Assembly (NCBI RefSeq): GCF_017833255.1
Contig: NZ_JAFIBU010000001.1
Location: forward strand, 3,714,501 to 3,778,500
Length of the DNA stretch: 64,000 nucleotides
Source: Paenibacillus sp. PvR098
Lineage (GTDB): Bacteria; Bacillota; Bacilli; Paenibacillales; NBRC-103111
Direction of reading: 5' to 3'
Every line of letters starts with the position of its first letter. Position 1 is the stretch's first letter. Under the pieces are notes generated by a model. That model was given only the letters and a program-made list of their open reading frames with translations, was not told the origin of the DNA and made no database searches. Below are positions 30,101 to 54,995 of the stretch, piece after piece. The position numbers were made by a program, and so were the translations under genes.

Positions 30101-30798
30101 ATCCCGGATCTCGAACTCCTGAATTATTTCCCTTACGATCTATCCAGCGCTTGAATCTGCCCCTGCATTACCGGCTTCATGTCCGCCAGCCCCGGCAGCT
30201 CGAACAAGAGCATGTTTTCTCCAAATCAAGCGCTGGATGTACTCCTGCCCGCGACATATTATCCGCTAATTCCGATCTTACGAACGTATTCAAAGCCATT
30301 TTCACCATGTTTAAACTCATCACACATTCGCGAGACCAATCTCCGATCATCCCATACGCCAAAACACCCGAATTTCCAAGCCATTTCGTGTATTATTTTT
30401 TGAAGTTCATGGCCGCAATCCGACAGACAGCGGCGGAAGATGTAGGGTATGATTGTGAAGGGTTCTGATCATTTCGATCATCTTGTCGATATCGTGCACA
30501 TTTGCAGTTCTAGAAGGACTGAGAGCATATCTCTATAGATGTCGGTAAGTCGATTGCCCGGGAAATATGATCGCAGATGTCGATAATCAAAAAGTTGCTT
30601 CTTTTTGTTGATATCAAGAATAAGCATGACTTTTTGTCGTCTTGCCCCAAGGCTATGAATCAGGATCAGCGAGGCTTGCATCTTATTATTTATTTCGCCA
30701 ACTTTTTATTGCAGCTTACAAGGATTTGAGTCCCCAAGAACCTCCTCTTCCGAAAAAAAGTGCCGAAAAAAGTGCGGAACAAATGTTGAAAAAATATC
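30101..30798. other. gene-poor stretch with an inverted repeat
   Basis: About 700 bp with no supported gene. ATCCAGCGCTTGA (30142-30154) and TCAAGCGCTGGAT (30226-30238) form a perfect 13-bp inverted repeat. On the minus strand between them a GGAG-preceded 26-codon frame begins MLLFELPGLADMKPVMQG, which resembles a coding remnant. The longer frame 30151-30468 has no ribosome-binding site and no motif. Confidence 0.4.
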
Positions 30799-43877: not shown

Positions 43878-45227
43878 ATGTGTGCAAAGCTTCGTTTTGA
43901 TTACAGTAAGGCACTGGACTTCATTGGACAGCATGAAGTCGATTATTTGGCGGGGGCAGTAGCCTCGGCGCATGAACAATTGCACAATAAAACCGGTGCA
44001 GGTAATGATTATCTCGGCTGGATAGACCTCCCTGTCAATTACGATAAAGACGAATTCGCCCGCATTCAGAAGGCGGCTCAGCAAATTCAGTCCGATTCCG
44101 ATGCGCTTGTGGTGATCGGTATCGGAGGCTCTTATCTGGGAGCGAGAGCGGCGATTGAGATGCTGTCCCACAGCTTCTATAACCTGCTGCCGAAGGGCAA
44201 ACGCAAGACGCCTGAAATCTATTTTGTCGGCCAAAACATCAGCTCCACTTACGTTACTCATTTGCTGCAGCTTCTCGAAGGAAAGGATATTTCCGTGAAC
44301 GTCATCTCCAAATCGGGCACGACGACCGAGCCGGCAGTTGCTTTCCGCATTTTCCGTGAGCTGCTTGAAAAGAAGTACGGGAAGGAAGCGGCACGGGGGC
44401 GTATTTATGCGACAACCGACCAAGCCAAAGGAGCACTGAAGAAGCTGGCTACGGAAGAAGGCTACGAAACGTTTGTCATCCCGGATGATGTAGGCGGACG
44501 GTACTCTGTGCTGACTGCGGTAGGGCTGCTGCCGATCGCAACGGCTGGCGTAGATATCGAGGCGATGATGCGCGGCGCGGCGGATGCGCGAGAAGCCTAT
44601 TCTAACCCGAATCTGCAGGAGAACGAAGCTTACCAATATGCGGCGGTACGTAATGCGCTCTACCGCAAAGGCAAGACAACGGAAATTCTCGTCAACTACG
44701 AGCCTTCGCTGCACTATGTATCAGAATGGTGGAAGCAGCTGTACGGCGAGAGTGAAGGAAAGGACAACAAAGGAATTTACCCGTCTTCAGTCGATTTTTC
44801 TACCGATCTTCATTCTATGGGACAGTTCATCCAAGAAGGCTCGCGTAATTTGTTTGAGACTGTGATTCAAGTAGAAGAGGTCACCGAGAAAATCACGATC
44901 GGTAACGATCCGCAGGATCTGGACGGGCTCAACTTCCTCAGCGGCCAGACGATGGATTTCGTCAACAAGAAAGCGTTCGAAGGTACGATGCTCGCGCATA
45001 CGGACGGTGGCGTGCCGAATCTCATCGTCACTTTGCCAGATATGAGCCCGTACACATTCGGGTACATGGTTTACTTCTTCGAAAAAGCTTGCGGAATCAG
45101 CGGATACTTGCTTGGGGTTAATCCGTTCGATCAGCCGGGCGTCGAAGCATATAAGAAAAACATGTTCGCGCTGCTTGGAAAGCCGGGATACGAGAAAGAA
45201 AAAGCTGAGCTCGAAGCCAGACTGTAA
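43878..45227 (+). CDS. pgi: glucose-6-phosphate isomerase
   Basis: 449 aa. ATG 43878 gives 11-nt spacing to AGGAGG (43861-43866); ATG 43869 would be only two nt away. [31 protein letters not shown], the catalytic Glu region and the C-terminal Lys motif ([16 protein letters not shown]) mark Pgi. It interconverts glucose 6-phosphate and fructose 6-phosphate. Monocistronic with its own terminator. Confidence 0.95.
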
Positions 45228-47490: not shown

Positions 47491-47641
47491 AGCACTTCGG
47501 AGTCTTTGGACATCTGCACATCTTGCCTGAACCAAGGACAGGGATACAAGCAGACAGGGCATGCACCTCGTACTATATAGCGTTAACACTAATGATGGAG
47601 GGCTTCTTGGCCCAACGCTAACTATATGGAGGTGCACGACT

Positions 47642-47953
47642 ATGCACAAAGCAGTCCGCAAGCAAGATGCTGCTAAGCTGATCGGCAAACCGATTTATGC
47701 GGTGAAGAAAGATGGCACGGTTGTTCATGGCAAGCTGGTGCGCATCAGCGGCGGAAAGCTGCTTGTCGCTCCCCGCAAAGGCAAGCAGGTCCGAACGTCG
47801 GCGATTATACCGCTCGTCCTGTTTGATTTGCTCGCCATTGGAACTGCCCCGTACGCCTACGGCGGCGGTTATGGCGGAGGGTACGGTTACGGAGGATACG
47901 GTGGTTACGGCGGCGGCTATCCGTATGGAGGAGGCGGCGGCTTCATCTGGTAA
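47642..47953 (+). CDS. hypothetical protein with Gly/Tyr-rich tail
   Basis: 103 aa from ATG 47642 with GGAGGT upstream. The first about 55 residues are basic and beta-like (KKDGTVVHGKLVRISGGKLL), followed by a short hydrophobic stretch (IIPLVLFDLLAIG) and a Gly/Tyr-rich tail of YGGG-type repeats ending in FIW. It has no Cys, so it is not a second TOMM substrate. Such tails are common in spore-coat or surface proteins; assignment is a guess. It is separated from the TOMM precursor by a strong terminator. Confidence 0.72.
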   Translation: MHKAVRKQDAAKLIGKPIYAVKKDGTVVHGKLVRISGGKLLVAPRKGKQVRTSAIIPLVLFDLLAIGTAPYAYGGGYGGGYGYGGYGGYGGGYPYGGGGGFIW

Positions 47954-48137: not shown

Positions 48138-48187
48138 CGTTATTTGCGTTGTTACAAATAGGCATTTGAATTAGTAACAATAGCGGA
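48138..48187 (+). promoter_or_regulatory. dyad upstream of the TOMM precursor gene
   Basis: TTGTTAC (48149-48155) and GTAACAA (48174-48180) form a perfect inverted repeat, and the flanks CCGTTATT/AATAGCGG extend it imperfectly. It lies about 110-160 bp before the precursor start, in a promoter-sized region, so it may be an operator. No clear sigma-A promoter was found; TATAAT at 48273-48278 lies too close to the ribosome-binding site. Confidence 0.4.
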
Positions 48188-48296
48188 TGATCTAACATAA
48201 ATTATTTTGTCAAGGGAGAACGGCCTAAGGTTTGGCGGATGTTCCCAACCAGGTAGTTGTTTCCCTTATGAATATAATTTAACGGAGGTTGTAAAC

Positions 48297-48578
48297 ATGG
48301 ATGAGTTTAAAAAAGATATTCAAAATTTGCAGGTTGCTGAATTCAACGCGGGTCAGGTAACGCCCTGGGACAACCAGGCACAGTACGAGAGTGCCCGATT
48401 GTGTATTGGTTTCGGCGGATTTTGTGGTGGATTTGGCCGGTGCGGTGGATTTTGTGGTGGATTTGGCCGATGTGGCGGATTTTGTGGTGGATTTGGTGGT
48501 GGATTTTGCGGTGGTTTCCGCTGCGGAGGATTTGGTGGCGGCTGTGCTCGCTGCGGTGGTTGCGCCCGCTGCTTCTAG
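48297..48578 (+). CDS. TOMM (linear azole peptide) precursor, heterocycloanthracin/sonorensin-like
   Basis: 93 aa from ATG 48297 with CGGAGG (48283-48288); the frame is open upstream to 48207 but no other site exists. Residues 1-34 are a leader with MDEFKKDIQNLQVAEFNAGQ and VTPWD. Residues 36-93 form the core: 27 Gly, 12 Cys, 11 Phe, 5 Arg, 2 Ala and 1 Ile, no Ser or Thr, so only thiazol(in)es can form. Core repeats follow GGFCGGFGRC. Leader style and CGG-type core match the heterocycloanthracin family as I recall it. Three TOMM enzyme genes follow on the same strand. Confidence 0.9.
   Translation: MDEFKKDIQNLQVAEFNAGQVTPWDNQAQYESARLCIGFGGFCGGFGRCGGFCGGFGRCGGFCGGFGGGFCGGFRCGGFGGGCARCGGCARCF
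48414..48500 (+). repeat. 30-bp tandem repeats in the precursor core
   Basis: Two near-perfect 30-bp units (48414-48443, 48444-48473) encode GGFCGGFGRC, and a third partial unit starts at 48474. Codons are nearly identical between units, suggesting recent duplication. Confidence 0.85.
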
Positions 48579-48615
48579 TTTCCTCACGGAAGCTGTCGCT
48601 GTTTAAGGAGAAGAG

Positions 48616-48645
48616 AAAGCCTCTGCCCTGCTGGGCAGGGGCTTT
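48616..48645 (+). terminator. stem-loop between TOMM precursor and enzyme genes
   Basis: A 13-bp stem with one wobble: AAAGCCTCTGCCC (48616-48628), loop TGCT, GGGCAGGGGCTTT (48633-48645), then TTCTC. Likely a partial terminator that makes precursor mRNA more abundant than enzyme mRNA. Confidence 0.85.
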
Positions 48646-48740
48646 TCTCGACAAAATCAGGCATGAGGGACAAATAGCCATACATAGAATGAAAAAGAAA
48701 GTGACGGCTTTAAAAGAAGTTCGCGGTAAGGAGGAGTGAA

Positions 48741-50702
48741 ATGACAAAGCTGAATCCCTCTATGCGTCTGAAGGTAAAAGGGGATACGTTTTTTCTCCCC
48801 GATTCGAACGGAGGCGTGTATTTTCGTAATAACTCAGGCTCGTTCCGTATGGAAGGCCGTGGGATTGATCAGTGGGTTGCCAAGCTGATCCCCGTATTAG
48901 ACGGAAAGTACTCCTTGGACGATTTGACGGACGGATTGCCGGACGAATACCGGAACCGGGTAGTCGAAATTGTAAACATGCTGTACCAAAACGGCTTTGT
49001 GCAGATAGTAGCAGACCGCTCGCATCAATTGCCGGATCCGATTCTCCAAAAGTACGCCTCTCAAATTGAGTTTTTGAACAGCTTTGGCGGCTCGGGCGCG
49101 TACCGCTTCCAGTCCTACCGTCAGACTAAAGTGTTGGCGGTCGGCTCAGGCTCTTGGTTGGTCTCGATGGCAGCAGCGTTGTTTGAATCCGGGTTGTCCA
49201 GGTTTCATGTACTGATAACGGATTCGCATCCAACCCATCGTCAGCGCTTGGCGGAGCTTACGGCGCACGCCCGCACAACGGACCCTGAGGCGGCGCTGGA
49301 GGAAATGACTCTTCCGAAGGCAGGCTTGAACTCTTGGCGGGAGGCCGTGAAGATGTTTGATGCGATATTGTATGTGTCGCAGGAAGGCGAGCTTGAGGAG
49401 CTGAGGGTGCTTCATGCGGCTTGCAGAGAGGAGAAGAAGGTCTTTCTCCCCGTTATTTGTCTGCAGGGGGCGGGTCTGGCAGGTCCGCTGGTGCATCCGG
49501 ATTCTGAAGCATGCTGGGAGTCGGCATGGCGCCGCATCCATAGATCCGTGTTGAAAGAAGACCTGAAGCTGCATACGGTCTCTTCAACAGCAGGAGCGAT
49601 GCTTACGAATGTGATCGTGTTTGAATGGTTCAAAATGGCTGCGGGAGCGGTTGAACAGGGAAGAAACCATAAATTCTACCTGCTCGATCTGGAGACGTTG
49701 GAAGGCAGTTGGCATTCGTTCATGCCCCATCCGCTGGTGACCGGCCGTGCTGAAGTCCAGCGGATTCGCGATCTTGAGCTGTTGCAGAAGGAGAGCTCAG
49801 ACGAAGGTGATCTGACGGAGTGGCTTACTTATTTCGACTTGTTGACATCAGCAGAATCGGGAGTTTTTCATCTTTGGCAGGAGGGAGAACTGAAGCAGCT
49901 CCCGCTCGCGCAGTGTCGGGTTCAAGCCGCCGACCCGCTGTCGGAAGGACCGGCAGAGTTGCTGCCGGAGCGGATATGTACAGGTCTGACGCACGAAGAG
50001 GCACGGCGGGAAGCGGGGTTGGCCGGGATTGAAGCGTATGTTTCGCGGATGGTTGGTTTACTTGCTTCGGAGCCATCCTCAGATCGGGAAGCAAAGGGAA
50101 ATGGGATAAACCCGCAGGAATGTGTTGGAGTCGGAGCGGGGACAACGGCCTCAGAGGGTATATGCCGCGCGCTGCATCACTGTTTGTCTGAGGAGCTAAA
50201 CAGGCGTCAGGGAGTTCAGCAGCCTCTTCTCCATCGGGTGGAGCTGACGGCGGTAGAAGATCAACGCTGCCAATATGATTTGCAGGCACTGACCACGATG
50301 CAAGGTTCGCCCGTGATCGGCTTGGGGGAGGACATAGCCGGTTTCCCTGTGGTTTGGGTCGGTACAAGCGGCTGCTGGTATGGCAGTGTAGGCTTGAATG
50401 TGACTCTGGCGCTCAGGAAGGCACTTCAACAGGCGCTGCTGAAAGCCCAAAATCCGATGGCTAATATGACAGCGCAGGAGCTGGTAGCTTCGTCTGTGAT
50501 TTGGGAGGAGGCATTGCCGCAAAGTCTGGCGATCCCTGCGTTCGAGGATACTGCACAGCGGGAGCTGCTGCAAACGACCCTGCGGGTTTTGAACCGGAGC
50601 CGCAAGCAGCCAGTGGTCTTTGATCTCGCGGTGGAGCCGTTTATGAGAGAAAAACTGGCAGGGGTGTTCTGTGTGTCGTTGCGAGAGGAGGAATCCCGAT
50701 GA
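48741..50702 (+). CDS. ThiF-like TOMM maturation protein with RRE-like N-terminus
   Basis: 653 aa from ATG 48741 behind AAGGAGGAG. It resembles the putative thiazole-containing bacteriocin maturation protein family (TIGR03693 as I recall). Residues 1-90 look like a PqqD/RRE winged helix (YFRNNSGSFRMEGRGIDQWV), which would bind the precursor leader. Residues about 130-330 have a ThiF/E1-like nucleotide loop (VLAVGSGSWLVSMAAALFE) without a visible catalytic Cys pair. The C-terminal part has stretches (LTHEEARREAGLAGIEAY; VGAGTTASEGICRALHHCL) that resemble degenerate YcaO ATP-site motifs. Overlaps the next gene at ATGA, so translation is coupled. Confidence 0.85.
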   Translation: MTKLNPSMRLKVKGDTFFLPDSNGGVYFRNNSGSFRMEGRGIDQWVAKLIPVLDGKYSLDDLTDGLPDEYRNRVVEIVNMLYQNGFVQIVADRSHQLPDPILQKYASQIEFLNSFGGSGAYRFQSYRQTKVLAVGSGSWLVSMAAALFESGLSRFHVLITDSHPTHRQRLAELTAHARTTDPEAALEEMTLPKAGLNSWREAVKMFDAILYVSQEGELEELRVLHAACREEKKVFLPVICLQGAGLAGPLVHPDSEACWESAWRRIHRSVLKEDLKLHTVSSTAGAMLTNVIVFEWFKMAAGAVEQGRNHKFYLLDLETLEGSWHSFMPHPLVTGRAEVQRIRDLELLQKESSDEGDLTEWLTYFDLLTSAESGVFHLWQEGELKQLPLAQCRVQAADPLSEGPAELLPERICTGLTHEEARREAGLAGIEAYVSRMVGLLASEPSSDREAKGNGINPQECVGVGAGTTASEGICRALHHCLSEELNRRQGVQQPLLHRVELTAVEDQRCQYDLQALTTMQGSPVIGLGEDIAGFPVVWVGTSGCWYGSVGLNVTLALRKALQQALLKAQNPMANMTAQELVASSVIWEEALPQSLAIPAFEDTAQRELLQTTLRVLNRSRKQPVVFDLAVEPFMREKLAGVFCVSLREEESR

Positions 50703-52645
50703 GCGGCGCTGTTGTATTGATTGTCGGAGAGGGGCAGCTGGCGGAATTCGCAACCTCCGAACTGTCCGTTCAATACGAGATCTTTCGCCAGAAAGATTTC
50801 AAGACAAGGATACCGAAAGGGGTCGATTTGGCACTAGTGCTGGACGATGGTTGGCATCCCTTCGCTCATCAGGAAGCCGAAGCGGTGCTGCAATCAGCGG
50901 GGATTCCTTGGGTGCGAGGCTTCGTTTCCTTTGGCGAGGCTATGATCGGGCCGCTGGTTCGTCCGGGTACTCCGGGGTGCTCTCAATGTGCGGATTTGAG
51001 GCATCTGATGGGAGGGCGCGATCGCAAGGAGATGTGGGGGCTGCGGCGAATGCTGTCCGAGCACGGAGGCCTGCCGCGTGACGTGTGGGCTTCACGCTTG
51101 GGACTTTTACAAGCGGCGCATCTGCTAGCAGCGGAGGTGCGGAGAATCCTGCGAGGCAATCAAGCGGAGATAGAAGGACGAGTGTTTTTGATTAACCTTC
51201 AAACGCTCAAGAGCTCGCGTCACTTCTTTTTGCCCGACCCGCAGTGTGCGGTGTGTGGTCGTTTGCCCGACGACTCACCGGAAGCAGCTCAGATTGCTTT
51301 GCGGCCAAGTCCGAAAATCAACGCCAAGAGCTACCGCTGCCGTCCGATGGATGACTTGAAGGAATTTTTGGCCAAAGATTATTTGGATTACCGGACCGGC
51401 TTGTTGAATGGGAAGATGCATGATTTTGTGTCGCCGTTTGCCGATGTGAGCGTGAATCTGCCGTTGTTCACGCAGGACGAGGCCTGCGGAGGCCGGACTC
51501 ATTCCTATGCGGAGAGTGAGCTGACGGGCATCATGGAGGGCCTGGAGCGATACTGCGGTGTGGCGCCCCGCGGCAAACGGACGGTGATCCATGACAGCTT
51601 CCGTCGTCTCGAGGATCAAGCGCTGGATCCTGTCAAGGTAGGAGTACATGATAAGGAGCAGTATGCGCGGCCCGGCTTCCCGTTCAAACTGTTTGATCCT
51701 GACCGTCCCATCGATTGGGTATGGGGCTATTCGTTTAAGCAAGAACGACCGATTCTGGTTCCCGAGCTGCTTGCTTATTACAGCTTGGGGTGCGGGGATA
51801 AATTTGTCCATGAAACGTCCAACGGATGCGCATTAGGAGGAAGCTTGGAGGAAGCTATTTTCTACGGCATTATGGAAGTGGTGGAGCGCGATTCGTTTTT
51901 GTTGACTTGGTATGCGCAGCTGCCTATTCCGCGGCTTGATCTGTCTACCGCTGACGACCGAGAATTGCAATTGATGATCGAACGTTTGCGGACGGTGGCG
52001 GGATTTGATGTGGTTGTATGTAACGCTACGTTGGAGAATGGGATTCCAAGCGTATGGGCGCTCGCGAAGAACAGGAAACCAAGGGGAGTGAATCTGATCT
52101 GTGCAGCCGGGGCTCATCCGGACCCGATACGCGCGGTGAAAAGCGCGATTCACGAGCTGTCGGGCATGATGATGACGCTGGACGAGAAATTTGAAGCGAA
52201 TCGGCAGGACATTGAGCGAATGTTCCGCGATCCGTTTCGGGTGCGTCACATGGAGGACCATTCCATGTTGTACAGCTTGCCCCAAGCGGAAGAGCGCCTG
52301 CGATTTTTGCTGGATGAGGATCGTCCGGTGCGGACCTTTGACGAGGAGTTCAAGCCGAAGGCGAGGCATACGGATTTGACCGATGATTTGAAGGACATTC
52401 TTCAGGTGTTTCGTGGCTTAAATCTTGATGTGATCGTGGTGGACCAGACTACACCGGAGTTGCGTCAAAACGGATTGTACTGTGTGAAAGTACTGATTCC
52501 AGGGATGCTCCCTATGACTTTCGGTCATCATCTTTCCCGTTTGACGGGACTGGAACGGGTATTCACCGTACCGGTGGACCTCGGATATGCAAAGCAACCG
52601 CTTACGCCGGAACAGCTCAATCCGCATCCGCATCCGTTTCCATAA
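50699..52645 (+). CDS. fused TOMM cyclodehydratase and YcaO protein
   Basis: 648 aa. The N-terminal about 220 residues are E1-like with a four-Cys zinc site (CSQC near 94, CAVC near 183), matching TIGR03882-type cyclodehydratase partner domains. The rest is a YcaO domain: TGIMEGLERYCG near 278 and FYGIMEVVERDSFLLTWYA near 391 carry the ATP/Mg Glu residues. The last residues are PHPHPFP, the Pro-rich C-terminus characteristic of TOMM YcaO enzymes and needed for activity in studied members. With the ThiF-like partner it would convert precursor Cys to thiazoline using ATP. Starts at ATG 50699 overlapping the previous stop. Confidence 0.92.
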   Translation: MSGAVVLIVGEGQLAEFATSELSVQYEIFRQKDFKTRIPKGVDLALVLDDGWHPFAHQEAEAVLQSAGIPWVRGFVSFGEAMIGPLVRPGTPGCSQCADLRHLMGGRDRKEMWGLRRMLSEHGGLPRDVWASRLGLLQAAHLLAAEVRRILRGNQAEIEGRVFLINLQTLKSSRHFFLPDPQCAVCGRLPDDSPEAAQIALRPSPKINAKSYRCRPMDDLKEFLAKDYLDYRTGLLNGKMHDFVSPFADVSVNLPLFTQDEACGGRTHSYAESELTGIMEGLERYCGVAPRGKRTVIHDSFRRLEDQALDPVKVGVHDKEQYARPGFPFKLFDPDRPIDWVWGYSFKQERPILVPELLAYYSLGCGDKFVHETSNGCALGGSLEEAIFYGIMEVVERDSFLLTWYAQLPIPRLDLSTADDRELQLMIERLRTVAGFDVVVCNATLENGIPSVWALAKNRKPRGVNLICAAGAHPDPIRAVKSAIHELSGMMMTLDEKFEANRQDIERMFRDPFRVRHMEDHSMLYSLPQAEERLRFLLDEDRPVRTFDEEFKPKARHTDLTDDLKDILQVFRGLNLDVIVVDQTTPELRQNGLYCVKVLIPGMLPMTFGHHLSRLTGLERVFTVPVDLGYAKQPLTPEQLNPHPHPFP

Positions 52646-52667
52646 CCCGTGACAAGGAGTGAGGAGG

Positions 52668-54254
52668 ATGAGTCTGGATGCCTTTATACATTATTTGCAT
52701 TATGACACGGATAAGGCCAGGCCCCCGGATTGGGAGGTAGATTGGGAAGATGCGCCGCTTCCGTATAAGCTCTACCGCGGTTTGCCAGTGGTTTCTTTAT
52801 GTCCGGAAGTGCCGCTGACGTTAGAAGGAGGGCGAGGGTGGGGGAAGCCCGATATCCGCAGAATCGCTCATTTTTTATGGTACGTATTCGGACTCACGCA
52901 GGTGTGTCAGTCCGTCATTCCTTTGGATTCCACGGAACATGCCGTGGGCTCCATGCCGTTTAAGCGCCGGTTTGTTCCCTCAGGGGGTGGGCTGTATCCC
53001 AACGAATTATACGTTTATTTGAAGCTGGAAGACTTGCCTCAAGGGGTTTACCACTATGATGTGGCTCATCATCAGTTGATACTGCTGCGCGAAGGTGATT
53101 TCGATTCCTATCTGGCTAGGGCGCTGGGCAGCCGCTGTGACGTATCGGCTTGTTTTGGCGCGGTATTTGTTTCGACCCTATTTTGGAAAAACTTTTTTAA
53201 ATACCACAACTTTGGCTACAGGCTGCAGGGTCTGGATGCCGGCGTGCTGATCGGACAACTGCTGGAAGTGGCCAAACGGTTTGGTATTTCCTCGGGAGTG
53301 TATTTCCAGTTTCTTGATCTGGCCGTCAATCATCTGCTGGGGATAACCGAACAGGAGGAGAGTGTGTATGCGGTGATTCCTCTGTCGGCTGCCCCTGAGA
53401 TCACATGGTTTGCAAACCGCAGAGACGATGATGCCATGGTCTCTGCCGCTGAATTGTGCCGGGAGCTGCCGGTTGTTCAGCATCAGCACTATGTCCGGTC
53501 ACAGAGGGTCAGGGAGTATCCGATGCTGATCCGGATGAATGAAGTGTCCTTGCTGGACTCGCCTCACTCGTTTCGGCGGATCGTGGGGGAGAAGAAAGCT
53601 GCCGAAGCAGGCCCAGTCCAGGCGGTGATTCTACCTTCAGTCAACCGGCTCTCGTATGATCTGGCACCGGTCTGTAGAAAGCGCTATTCACCGGAAATGG
53701 ATTTCGTGATGGGCCGGATAAGTGAGCCGAACTTGGCCGCGCTGCTGCAGGAGGCGGCGAAATCCTTTCTGTATCGCAACGATTTGGATGGAGCCTGTGA
53801 GAACCCTGTGCCCCGCGTCCGGCTGTATTGCTGCCTGCGTGGGGTCGAAGGAATTCCGGACGGCGCATACCGCTATGACAGTACTCATCATTTGCTCAGG
53901 CAGGTACGTCCCGGGGACCATCGGCTCAGGCTGCAGCAGGGGATGTCCCTGGACAATGTGAATCTGTACCAAGTTCCGCTCAGCCTGCATGTGGCGGGGG
54001 ATAAGGACCATCTTCTTACGTTACTAGGGTACAGAGGCTATCGTATTCAACAAATGGAAGCGGGTATGCTCGTCCAGCGTCTGCTGCTGGCGGCATTCGC
54101 CATGGGGATGGGGGGGCATCCGCTTCTCGGATATGATGTGAACTTGTGTGATGAGATCTACCATATGGCCCGGCATGGACAAACGAGCCTGATTCAAGTC
54201 CCGGTCGGTCCTTATCGTGATCGCCCCCGATTGTCGGGAGGATTGCATGGTTAA
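52668..54254 (+). CDS. SagB-type dehydrogenase with two nitroreductase-fold domains
   Basis: 528 aa from ATG 52668 (AAGGAG eight nt upstream; GTG 52659 overlaps it). The first domain has the FMN-site pattern RRFVPSGGGLYPNELYVY near residue 101 and a following YNFG-like segment (YHNFGYRLQGLDAGVLIGQL). The second, from about residue 330, repeats the fold with NRLSYDLAP and GYRGYRIQQMEAGMLVQRL. SagB/McbC enzymes oxidise azolines to azoles with FMN. The duplication matches the TIGR03605 family architecture in heterocycloanthracin clusters. Last gene of the unit. Confidence 0.9.
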   Translation: MSLDAFIHYLHYDTDKARPPDWEVDWEDAPLPYKLYRGLPVVSLCPEVPLTLEGGRGWGKPDIRRIAHFLWYVFGLTQVCQSVIPLDSTEHAVGSMPFKRRFVPSGGGLYPNELYVYLKLEDLPQGVYHYDVAHHQLILLREGDFDSYLARALGSRCDVSACFGAVFVSTLFWKNFFKYHNFGYRLQGLDAGVLIGQLLEVAKRFGISSGVYFQFLDLAVNHLLGITEQEESVYAVIPLSAAPEITWFANRRDDDAMVSAAELCRELPVVQHQHYVRSQRVREYPMLIRMNEVSLLDSPHSFRRIVGEKKAAEAGPVQAVILPSVNRLSYDLAPVCRKRYSPEMDFVMGRISEPNLAALLQEAAKSFLYRNDLDGACENPVPRVRLYCCLRGVEGIPDGAYRYDSTHHLLRQVRPGDHRLRLQQGMSLDNVNLYQVPLSLHVAGDKDHLLTLLGYRGYRIQQMEAGMLVQRLLLAAFAMGMGGHPLLGYDVNLCDEIYHMARHGQTSLIQVPVGPYRDRPRLSGGLHG

Positions 54255-54336: not shown

Positions 54337-54630
54337 TTAATAATGAACCGGATAAGGGTAATGGTGGTGATGCGGCCATGGATGGTGATAGAACCAGGGA
54401 TCATAGTGACCGTGGTGGTGGTGCCATGGATTGTACCAGGCAGGATGGAAGCCATCACAATAGTCTTGATGATAATGGACATGATGATAGTAGTCATGGT
54501 GAGGGTCATCGTGATGATGGTAGTCATGATGAGGGGTATAAGTATACGTATGAGTCTGAAACTGCTGCGCGGGTCGGTCAAACTCGGCTGCATCCGCCGG
54601 CTCTTGTATGAATGGGTTTTCCTGAATCAT
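54337..54630 (-). CDS. His/Tyr-rich small protein
   Basis: 97 aa on the minus strand from ATG 54630 with AAAGGAGG seven nt upstream, a near-ideal site. The N-terminus is ordinary (MIQENPFIQEPADAAEFDRP); the rest has 25 His and 13 Tyr, in HH, HHH and HHHH groups mixed with Asp and Pro. It could bind metal, or be a spore coat protein of the CotD-like type; neither is proven. It is convergent with the TOMM dehydrogenase gene and may be unrelated to it. Confidence 0.75.
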   Translation of the reverse strand: MIQENPFIQEPADAAEFDRPAQQFQTHTYTYTPHHDYHHHDDPHHDYYHHVHYHQDYCDGFHPAWYNPWHHHHGHYDPWFYHHPWPHHHHYPYPVHY

Positions 54631-54671
54631 ATTGTGTCCTCCTTTGTGAACATACTCTACAATATGCTGAA

Positions 54672-54995
54672 ATGAAAAAAAGGGCACTCGTCTACATCAA
54701 TTGGGCTTGCCCAAAGTCGGTTTTTTCTAAACTGGGGTGCATTCAAGTCGTCGAAGCGCAAAGCTTGAACCCGATATTTTTCTACCCTGTTCCTGATGAT
54801 TCTCCCCTTACTGAATATGGATCAGGTTATTCTGAATCCGCAAGTAGCTTGGTATTCGGAAGAATCGGAGCGGAATTAAAGGGGAAGGTTGCCCAGAACA
54901 TCGTTGATGTTCTCCCCGGGTTTTATCCTGCCTACCTTGCCAATCCTGATGCAAAAGGGTTAGTTGACCTTAGAAACAAACTGTTAATTCCATAA
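54672..54995 (+). CDS. hypothetical ORF of about 107 aa, possible remnant
   Basis: From ATG 54672 without a convincing ribosome-binding site. It reads MKKRALVYINWACPKSVFSK and later LVFGRIGAELKGKVAQNIVD. No family recognised, and codon use is mixed. It starts close to the divergent His-rich gene and ends before a strong terminator. It may be a decayed gene fragment rather than a working gene. Confidence 0.3.
   Translation: MKKRALVYINWACPKSVFSKLGCIQVVEAQSLNPIFFYPVPDDSPLTEYGSGYSESASSLVFGRIGAELKGKVAQNIVDVLPGFYPAYLANPDAKGLVDLRNKLLIP

Follow-up and report, generated by a model that had tools for sequence, protein, structure and literature searches.

A putative polythiazol(in)e peptide of the heterocycloanthracin family with a sigma-K-type promoter in Paenibacillus sp. 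PvR098

When, and in which cell, is a heterocycloanthracin-type peptide made? The family was described and named as bacteriocins in 2009 (Haft 2009, PMC2674419) and has carried that label since, yet in the literature examined its products have no final structure, and no role has been proven for them. The locus considered here lies in a stretch of 64,000 nucleotides of Paenibacillus sp. PvR098 DNA (the window, meaning the whole stretch that was analyzed), and comparison of its control region with those of relatives suggests a switch of late spore formation that is widely shared in the family. A sigma-K-type promoter would provide a testable answer to the question of timing and cell type, and its conservation changes the likely biology, suggesting a peptide that belongs to spore formation and less to routine competition between bacteria.

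The precursor peptide and its family

The locus contains a short ORF that the initial annotation had read as a TOMM precursor:

48284-48288 (+): ribosome-binding site GGAGG, read from the sequence
48297-48578 (+): precursor ORF, 93 aa, translated without an internal stop
48297..48401 (+): leader peptide, residues 1-35, with similar leaders in relatives and within the TIGR03601 match that spans residues 1-93; the leader/core boundary is putative
48402..48575 (+): core, residues 36-93, with 12 Cys, neither Ser nor Thr, and GGFC/GRC repeats

Translation bears out the earlier description of the core. Residues 36-93 comprise 27 glycines, 12 cysteines (at positions 36, 43, 49, 53, 59, 63, 71, 76, 83, 86, 89 and 92), 11 phenylalanines, 5 arginines, 2 alanines and 1 isoleucine, with serine and threonine absent. 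The GGFC and GRC pattern is also as described, and FRC and ARC occur in addition. Successive cysteines are separated by intervals of 7, 6, 4, 6, 4, 8, 5, 7, 3, 3 and 3, and Cys-Xaa-Xaa spacing is confined to the last three of these eleven, at the C-terminal end; the cores fetched from other genomes vary widely.

A resemblance to heterocycloanthracin and sonorensin had been proposed, and database searching agrees with it. The precursor matches the NCBIfam model TIGR03601 (heterocycloanthracin/sonorensin family bacteriocin) over residues 1-93 with 50.6 bits against a cut-off of 35, and the neighboring F, C/D and SagB genes match their own models over cut-off. Because precursor and enzymes all match in this way, the peptide is, as judged by its sequence, a new member of the known family.

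Codon comparison with G071, the closest relative found, indicates that the precursor ORF is under protein-level constraint. In the core (58 aligned codons) we find 21 differences that are synonymous only, 3 that change the amino acid and one two-codon in-frame indel, and in the leader (35 codons) there are 6 synonymous-only and 5 amino-acid-changing differences. Given this pattern and the over-cut-off TIGR03601 match, the ORF is not a chance one. The same data bear on the possibility that it encodes an unmodified Gly/Phe/Cys-rich structural protein, for example of the coat, or is a spurious product of repeats, as its low-complexity composition and the presence of a Gly/Tyr-rich ORF just upstream (47561-47953) might suggest. 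However, the TIGR03601 match includes the leader, F, C/D and B adjoin the precursor in dozens of relatives, and the codons show constraint relative to G071, so that we regard this explanation as highly improbable. A 102-aa ORF on the reverse strand (48279-48587) was also considered, and was read as a by-product of the repeats.

TIGR03601 matches at E up to 1e-3 occur in 59 of 104 genomes searched in the host's family, 47 of them over cut-off, and the F-protein model TIGR03693 is matched at E up to 1e-10 in 80 of the 104, with 67 over cut-off. In a class-wide sample of 398 genomes, 68, one of them the host's, match TIGR03601 at E up to 1e-5. Precursors were compared in a set of 64, of which 63 were obtained by pattern extraction from 72 host-family places (that of the window included) and one came from an Alteribacillus contig. 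Of the 64 cores, 24 contain two or more GGFC units, 21 lack Ser and Thr, and 11, that of the window among them, combine both features. Since 11 precursors share both features and the core of G071 is nearly identical, the core alone is neither unusual nor new, and the suggestion that its Phe-Cys-Gly-Gly repeat with Arg spacers may be something novel is not supported. Four precursors (L171, L172, L032 and L048) have cores composed almost entirely of Cys-His-His or Cys-His-Asn repeats, and look metal-binding.

The enzyme genes and the conserved unit

The precursor adjoins its presumed enzymes, as the initial annotation had noted, with the first enzyme gene starting at 48741, 162 nt downstream:

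48741..50702 (+): TOMM F protein (ocin-ThiF-like) with an N-terminal leader-binding (RRE) region; TIGR03693, 726.9 bits, cut-off 561.9
50699..52645 (+): fused C/D cyclodehydratase (YcaO); TIGR03604 with 426.9 bits and TIGR03882 with 167.1, each above its cut-off
52659..54254 (+): SagB-type dehydrogenase (B protein); TIGR03605, 199.7 bits in two stretches, cut-off 78.4

Over residues 12-90, F matches 8t19_A, the PbtF chain (E 2.8e-10), and PMC7470986 places a leader-binding RRE in ocin-ThiF-like proteins. A fused C/D enzyme whose N-terminal C domain is shortened characterizes the family. Here the fusion is seen in a single 648-aa ORF, in which TIGR03882 covers residues 69-236 and TIGR03604 residues 265-648, and this protein matches chains of TruD, LynD and MusD. 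Many genomes of the host's family contain a second F-like protein (for example at G092:C102:51752-53275 and G069:C23:90491-92050) that matches TIGR03693 only from approximately position 125 and below cut-off; these proteins may form a group of paralogs that lack the customary leader-binding region at the N terminus. By the count of the search tool, no record in a plasmid collection covers 80% of F in one place, the best matches being 41% over residues 131-652 and 63% over residues 1-288. The latter identity is found in the Paenibacillus larvae plasmid record NZ_CP019653.1 (21.6 kb), in which nothing is annotated at that place and which perhaps holds a partial copy of the cassette.

When ORFs at least 110 aa long were clustered across 53 loci, the broadly recurring genes were F (45 loci), C/D (45 loci) and B (44 loci). 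The next cluster, at 19 loci, consists of precursors in extended frames, followed by mixed two-component/AraC-type regulators (18 loci) and mixed ABC ATPases (10 loci), both at scattered places. Among ORFs of this length, the 53 loci share no one gene for export, proteolysis or immunity. In Cox et al. (Cox 2015, PMC4603692), C/D, F and B are likewise given as the only proteins found in all clusters of the family, and the C/D enzyme together with F is reported to install thiazolines in vitro.

This gene content is relevant to the conventional picture of a secreted bacteriocin, according to which stationary or competing cells express the cluster, a housekeeping transporter exports the product and related bacteria are killed. 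The naming of the family as bacteriocins (PMC2674419) favors such a picture, as does the account, in PMC4544038, that sonorensin, assigned to the family by prediction, kills both Gram-positive and Gram-negative cells with an increase in membrane permeability. However, among ORFs of 110 aa or more the 53 loci have no single recurrent gene of any of these kinds (exporter, protease, immunity), the gene set common to all clusters in Cox et al. is confined to C/D, F and B, and the precursor promoter is of mother-cell type, as described below. We therefore consider secretion as a conventional bacteriocin unlikely.

In a search for a conserved accessory gene among the loci compared, three ORFs of the window (Gly/Tyr-rich, His-rich and FmdA-like) had matches in G071 and in no other locus; the Gly/Tyr-rich ORF also matches the host itself, and the window neighbors gave one weak TetR match, in L072. 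The Gly/Tyr-rich ORF (130 aa, 47561-47953, +), located just upstream of the precursor, has no Pfam or NCBIfam match over cut-off. A His/Tyr/Pro-rich ORF of 116 aa (54337-54687, -) directly follows the enzyme operon on the opposite strand; it has a 62% identical copy in G071 and no family match in Pfam or NCBIfam. Anti-phage models found no match in the four ORFs scanned.

Control regions of the precursor and the enzyme operon

Two control regions can be distinguished, one in front of the precursor and one between the precursor and the enzyme operon:

48156..48167 (+): putative GerE-like box AAATAGGCATTT, whose TAGGC ends 12 nt before the -35 AAC
48174..48204 (+): predicted sigma-K-type promoter, with -35 AAC at 48176-48178, 17 nt, and -10 CATAAATTA at 48196-48204
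48174-48187 (+): conserved element GTAACANNNGCGGA inside the sigma-K-type promoter, from comparison of upstream regions
48613..48649 (+): hairpin resembling an intrinsic terminator, which separates the precursor from the enzyme operon; -29.7 kcal/mol, z -4.21, none of 200 shuffles as low
48661..48690 (+): GAGGGACAAATAG...TACATAGAAT, an element conserved across loci that resembles a promoter for the enzyme operon

Side-by-side comparison of the upstream regions reveals a conserved block of approximately 60 nt, in which column identity, averaged over 58 aligned regions, reaches 0.87 in the center and drops to the background level of 0.37-0.38 at both edges. Anchored logos of the block read AAATaGGC, then CAGTAACAAg-N-GCGGA, then CATAaaTTG. 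The element GTAACANNNGCGGA is exact in 53 of the 64 upstream regions and has one mismatch in 5 more, and its only exact copy in the 4.7-Mb host genome lies 123 nt before the precursor start codon. AAC-N17-CATA occupies 48176-48199 in the window, and the spacing between AC and CATA is 17 nt in 53 cases and 16 nt in 11. In other families of Bacilli the A-rich box is kept, as are AAC and CATA with AC and CATA 16-18 nt apart, and GCGGA fades. GTAACANNNGCGGA is also exact at five of the six precursors for which the fetched stretch (14.6-17 kb) has no F match (L040, L065, L066, L071 and L073), but not at L038. A conserved RNA structure was considered and rejected, as an alignment fold of 24 non-redundant sequences finds none and Rfam yields two matches, both far below gathering scores.

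The block resembles sigma-K promoters. According to PMC3789822, sigma-E and sigma-K promoters have very similar -10 elements and differ at -35 (ATA versus AC), sigma-K elements have a classical spacing of 16-18 bp with a CATA-type -10, and dpaA is listed in the C. difficile sigma-K regulon; the spacing given for B. subtilis in PMC517825 is compatible with 16-18 bp. The arrangement [AC]AC-N16-18-CATA within 230 nt before the start is present at 62 of 63 host-family precursors, at 44 of 65 precursors from other Bacilli (and absent from 21), and at 44 of 771 control ORFs from 52 host-family loci; many of these ORFs may not be genes. A composite rule, fixed after the sequences had been viewed, that places a T[AG]GG[CT] (TRGGY) box 8-16 nt before AAC-N16-18-CATA, identifies 44 of the 63 host-family precursors, 24 of the 65 from other Bacilli and none of the 771 controls. 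Eight further precursors, which the first extraction pattern had missed, all show the simple arrangement, and five show the composite. In non-redundant sets, AAC-N16-18-CATA is found in 54 of 54 regions of the family set, which includes one Alteribacillus (dinucleotide shuffle mean 2.7, reverse strand 5), and in 36 of 60 from other Bacilli (dinucleotide shuffle mean 2.7, reverse strand 3), counts that come from homologous promoters and are therefore non-independent observations.

As a positive control, the layout was sought at dpaA. Of the 30 best-scoring loci fetched, one was misframed, and the layout was present at all of the other 29. In the host itself, both dpaA and the gerE candidate (a stand-alone GerE-like gene in a 95-aa frame) have AC-N17-CATA. 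The full B. subtilis -10, CATANNNTA, yields no clear signal. It is found in 8 of the 64 upstream regions, where shuffles average 4.3 and the reverse strand gives 7, and with AC in front in 5 of 64 (0.9 in shuffles, 4 on the reverse strand). The -10 of the precursor promoter, CATAAATTA, conforms to the full CATANNNTA, and the form general to the family is CATAnnTTG.

Upstream of the -35, AAATAGGCATTT fits RWWTRGGYNNYY, which we take to be the GerE consensus; a literature search for this consensus turned up these letters for a cyanobacterial regulator alone, PedR, as its motif. The TRGGY box is a putative GerE site, and the promoter comparison as a whole suggests that the precursor depends on sigma-K and GerE.

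Since the host genome has no second copy of GTAACANNNGCGGA, a dedicated regulator may act on part of the block. Taken further, the entire block could be the operator of such a regulator, working with another sigma factor, and the likeness of AC and CATA to a sigma-K promoter would be coincidental. Both the single occurrence of GTAACANNNGCGGA in the host genome and the GCGGA part, strong in the host's family and weak elsewhere, are in line with this. However, it is the AC and CATA at 16-18 nt that persist across other families of Bacilli, the host dpaA and gerE candidate share the same layout, and the regulator ORFs near 18 of the 53 loci are of mixed kinds and in mixed places. An operator of this type is, in our estimation, improbable, and sigma-K remains the favored assignment.

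The enzyme operon appears to have its own promoter behind the hairpin. The element there has the general form GaCATGagGGACAAAtag...TACATAagAT and one exact match in the host genome; a loose pattern of it is found at 57 of the 64 precursor loci (shuffle mean 1.7, maximum 6) and a tight pattern at 50 of 64 (shuffle mean 0.02). Its -10 CATA is of the sigma-E/sigma-K type, like the -10 of dpaA. Neither rule describes its -35, that for sigma-K agreeing with 1 of 49 spacers and that for sigma-E with 5 of 49. The sequence GGACAA within this promoter may be a SpoIIID-like box.

A proposed pathway and its relation to known systems

Several observations touch on sporulation more generally. All 68 genomes of the class with a precursor contain spoIVA, which is present in 266 of the 398 sampled, although this co-occurrence (hypergeometric 4.6e-14) is confounded by phylogeny. 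The sigK gene of the host is split (L224, G000:C1:29500-45500, outside the window), with an N-terminal part at 30246-30467 and a C-terminal part at 44108-44605; a serine-recombinase-like ORF lies just before the second part, and the intervening skin-like element is approximately 13.6 kb. In at least five loci of the host's genus (L047, L050, L051, L058 and L061), ORFs near the cassette look like spore-germination receptor genes. A B. cereus ATCC 14579 study (PMC6962202) reports that a putative heterocycloanthracin-family gene and BC1248-50, presumably the enzyme operon, are up in biofilm cells, that sporulation genes are up too, and that the latter fall again at 72 h. The excerpts of that study, PMC9586298 and PMC10745906, a non-exhaustive selection, contain no statement of sigma-K control or of a sporulation promoter for the family.

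We consider it likely that the locus encodes a polythiazol(in)e RiPP of the heterocycloanthracin family that is transcribed by sigma-K, probably with GerE, and made in the sporulating mother cell. On the basis of the promoter comparison, sigma-K RNA polymerase would transcribe the precursor late in sporulation, probably with GerE assisting, and F, C/D and SagB would be made in the same cell from their own mother-cell-type promoter behind the terminator. F would bind the leader and present the precursor to the C/D enzyme, which, going by published work on the family, would cyclize core cysteines to thiazolines. SagB may then oxidize some or all of these to thiazoles, giving at most 12 rings and a mass change of up to about -240 Da. 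Ring formation in the host strain, and the location and function of its peptide, we infer from these relationships. The missing export genes suggest one of two fates for the product, assembly onto the surface of the forespore or release through lysis of the mother cell, and neither would call for a dedicated exporter, protease or immunity gene. Within the mother-cell reading, we give about half of the weight to placement in the spore envelope and about a third to a lysis-released antimicrobial.

A broader proposal, that throughout the family the mother cell alone makes these polythiazole peptides, under sigma-K and GerE, and deposits them in the spore envelope, is tentative, and we lean against it in this general form. 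If true, the family would be azole-modified spore-surface components, and its missing exporter and immunity genes would be explained. If the sporulation promoter is right, the function of the family becomes directly testable, and spores and mother-cell lysates would be worth examining beyond vegetative supernatants.

The closest parallels are the other TIGR03601 precursors of the heterocycloanthracin/sonorensin family, with which the window shares the leader, the repetitive Cys/Gly-rich core and the set of F, C/D and SagB. The precursor is next to its enzymes, as in B. licheniformis and unlike the B. anthracis and B. cereus strains of PMC2674419, and its core has GGFC-type spacing, whereas the family has been described as mainly Cys-Xaa-Xaa. 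Thiopeptide F-protein systems (PbtF, 8t19) have an F-type leader-binding protein in common with this locus, but their lantibiotic-type dehydratase and pyridine-forming enzyme are matched by none of the 10 window proteins scanned. The sigma-K regulon gene dpaA and the gerE-like gene share the layout of AC, 17 nt and CATA with the precursor promoter, but lack GTAACANNNGCGGA and have other functions. The ortholog in G071 (L027/L208) differs by 8 amino acids and by a core two residues longer, in a precursor of 95 aa, and otherwise has nearly the same core, the same neighbors and the same promoter layout, including GTAACANNNGCGGA with one mismatch.
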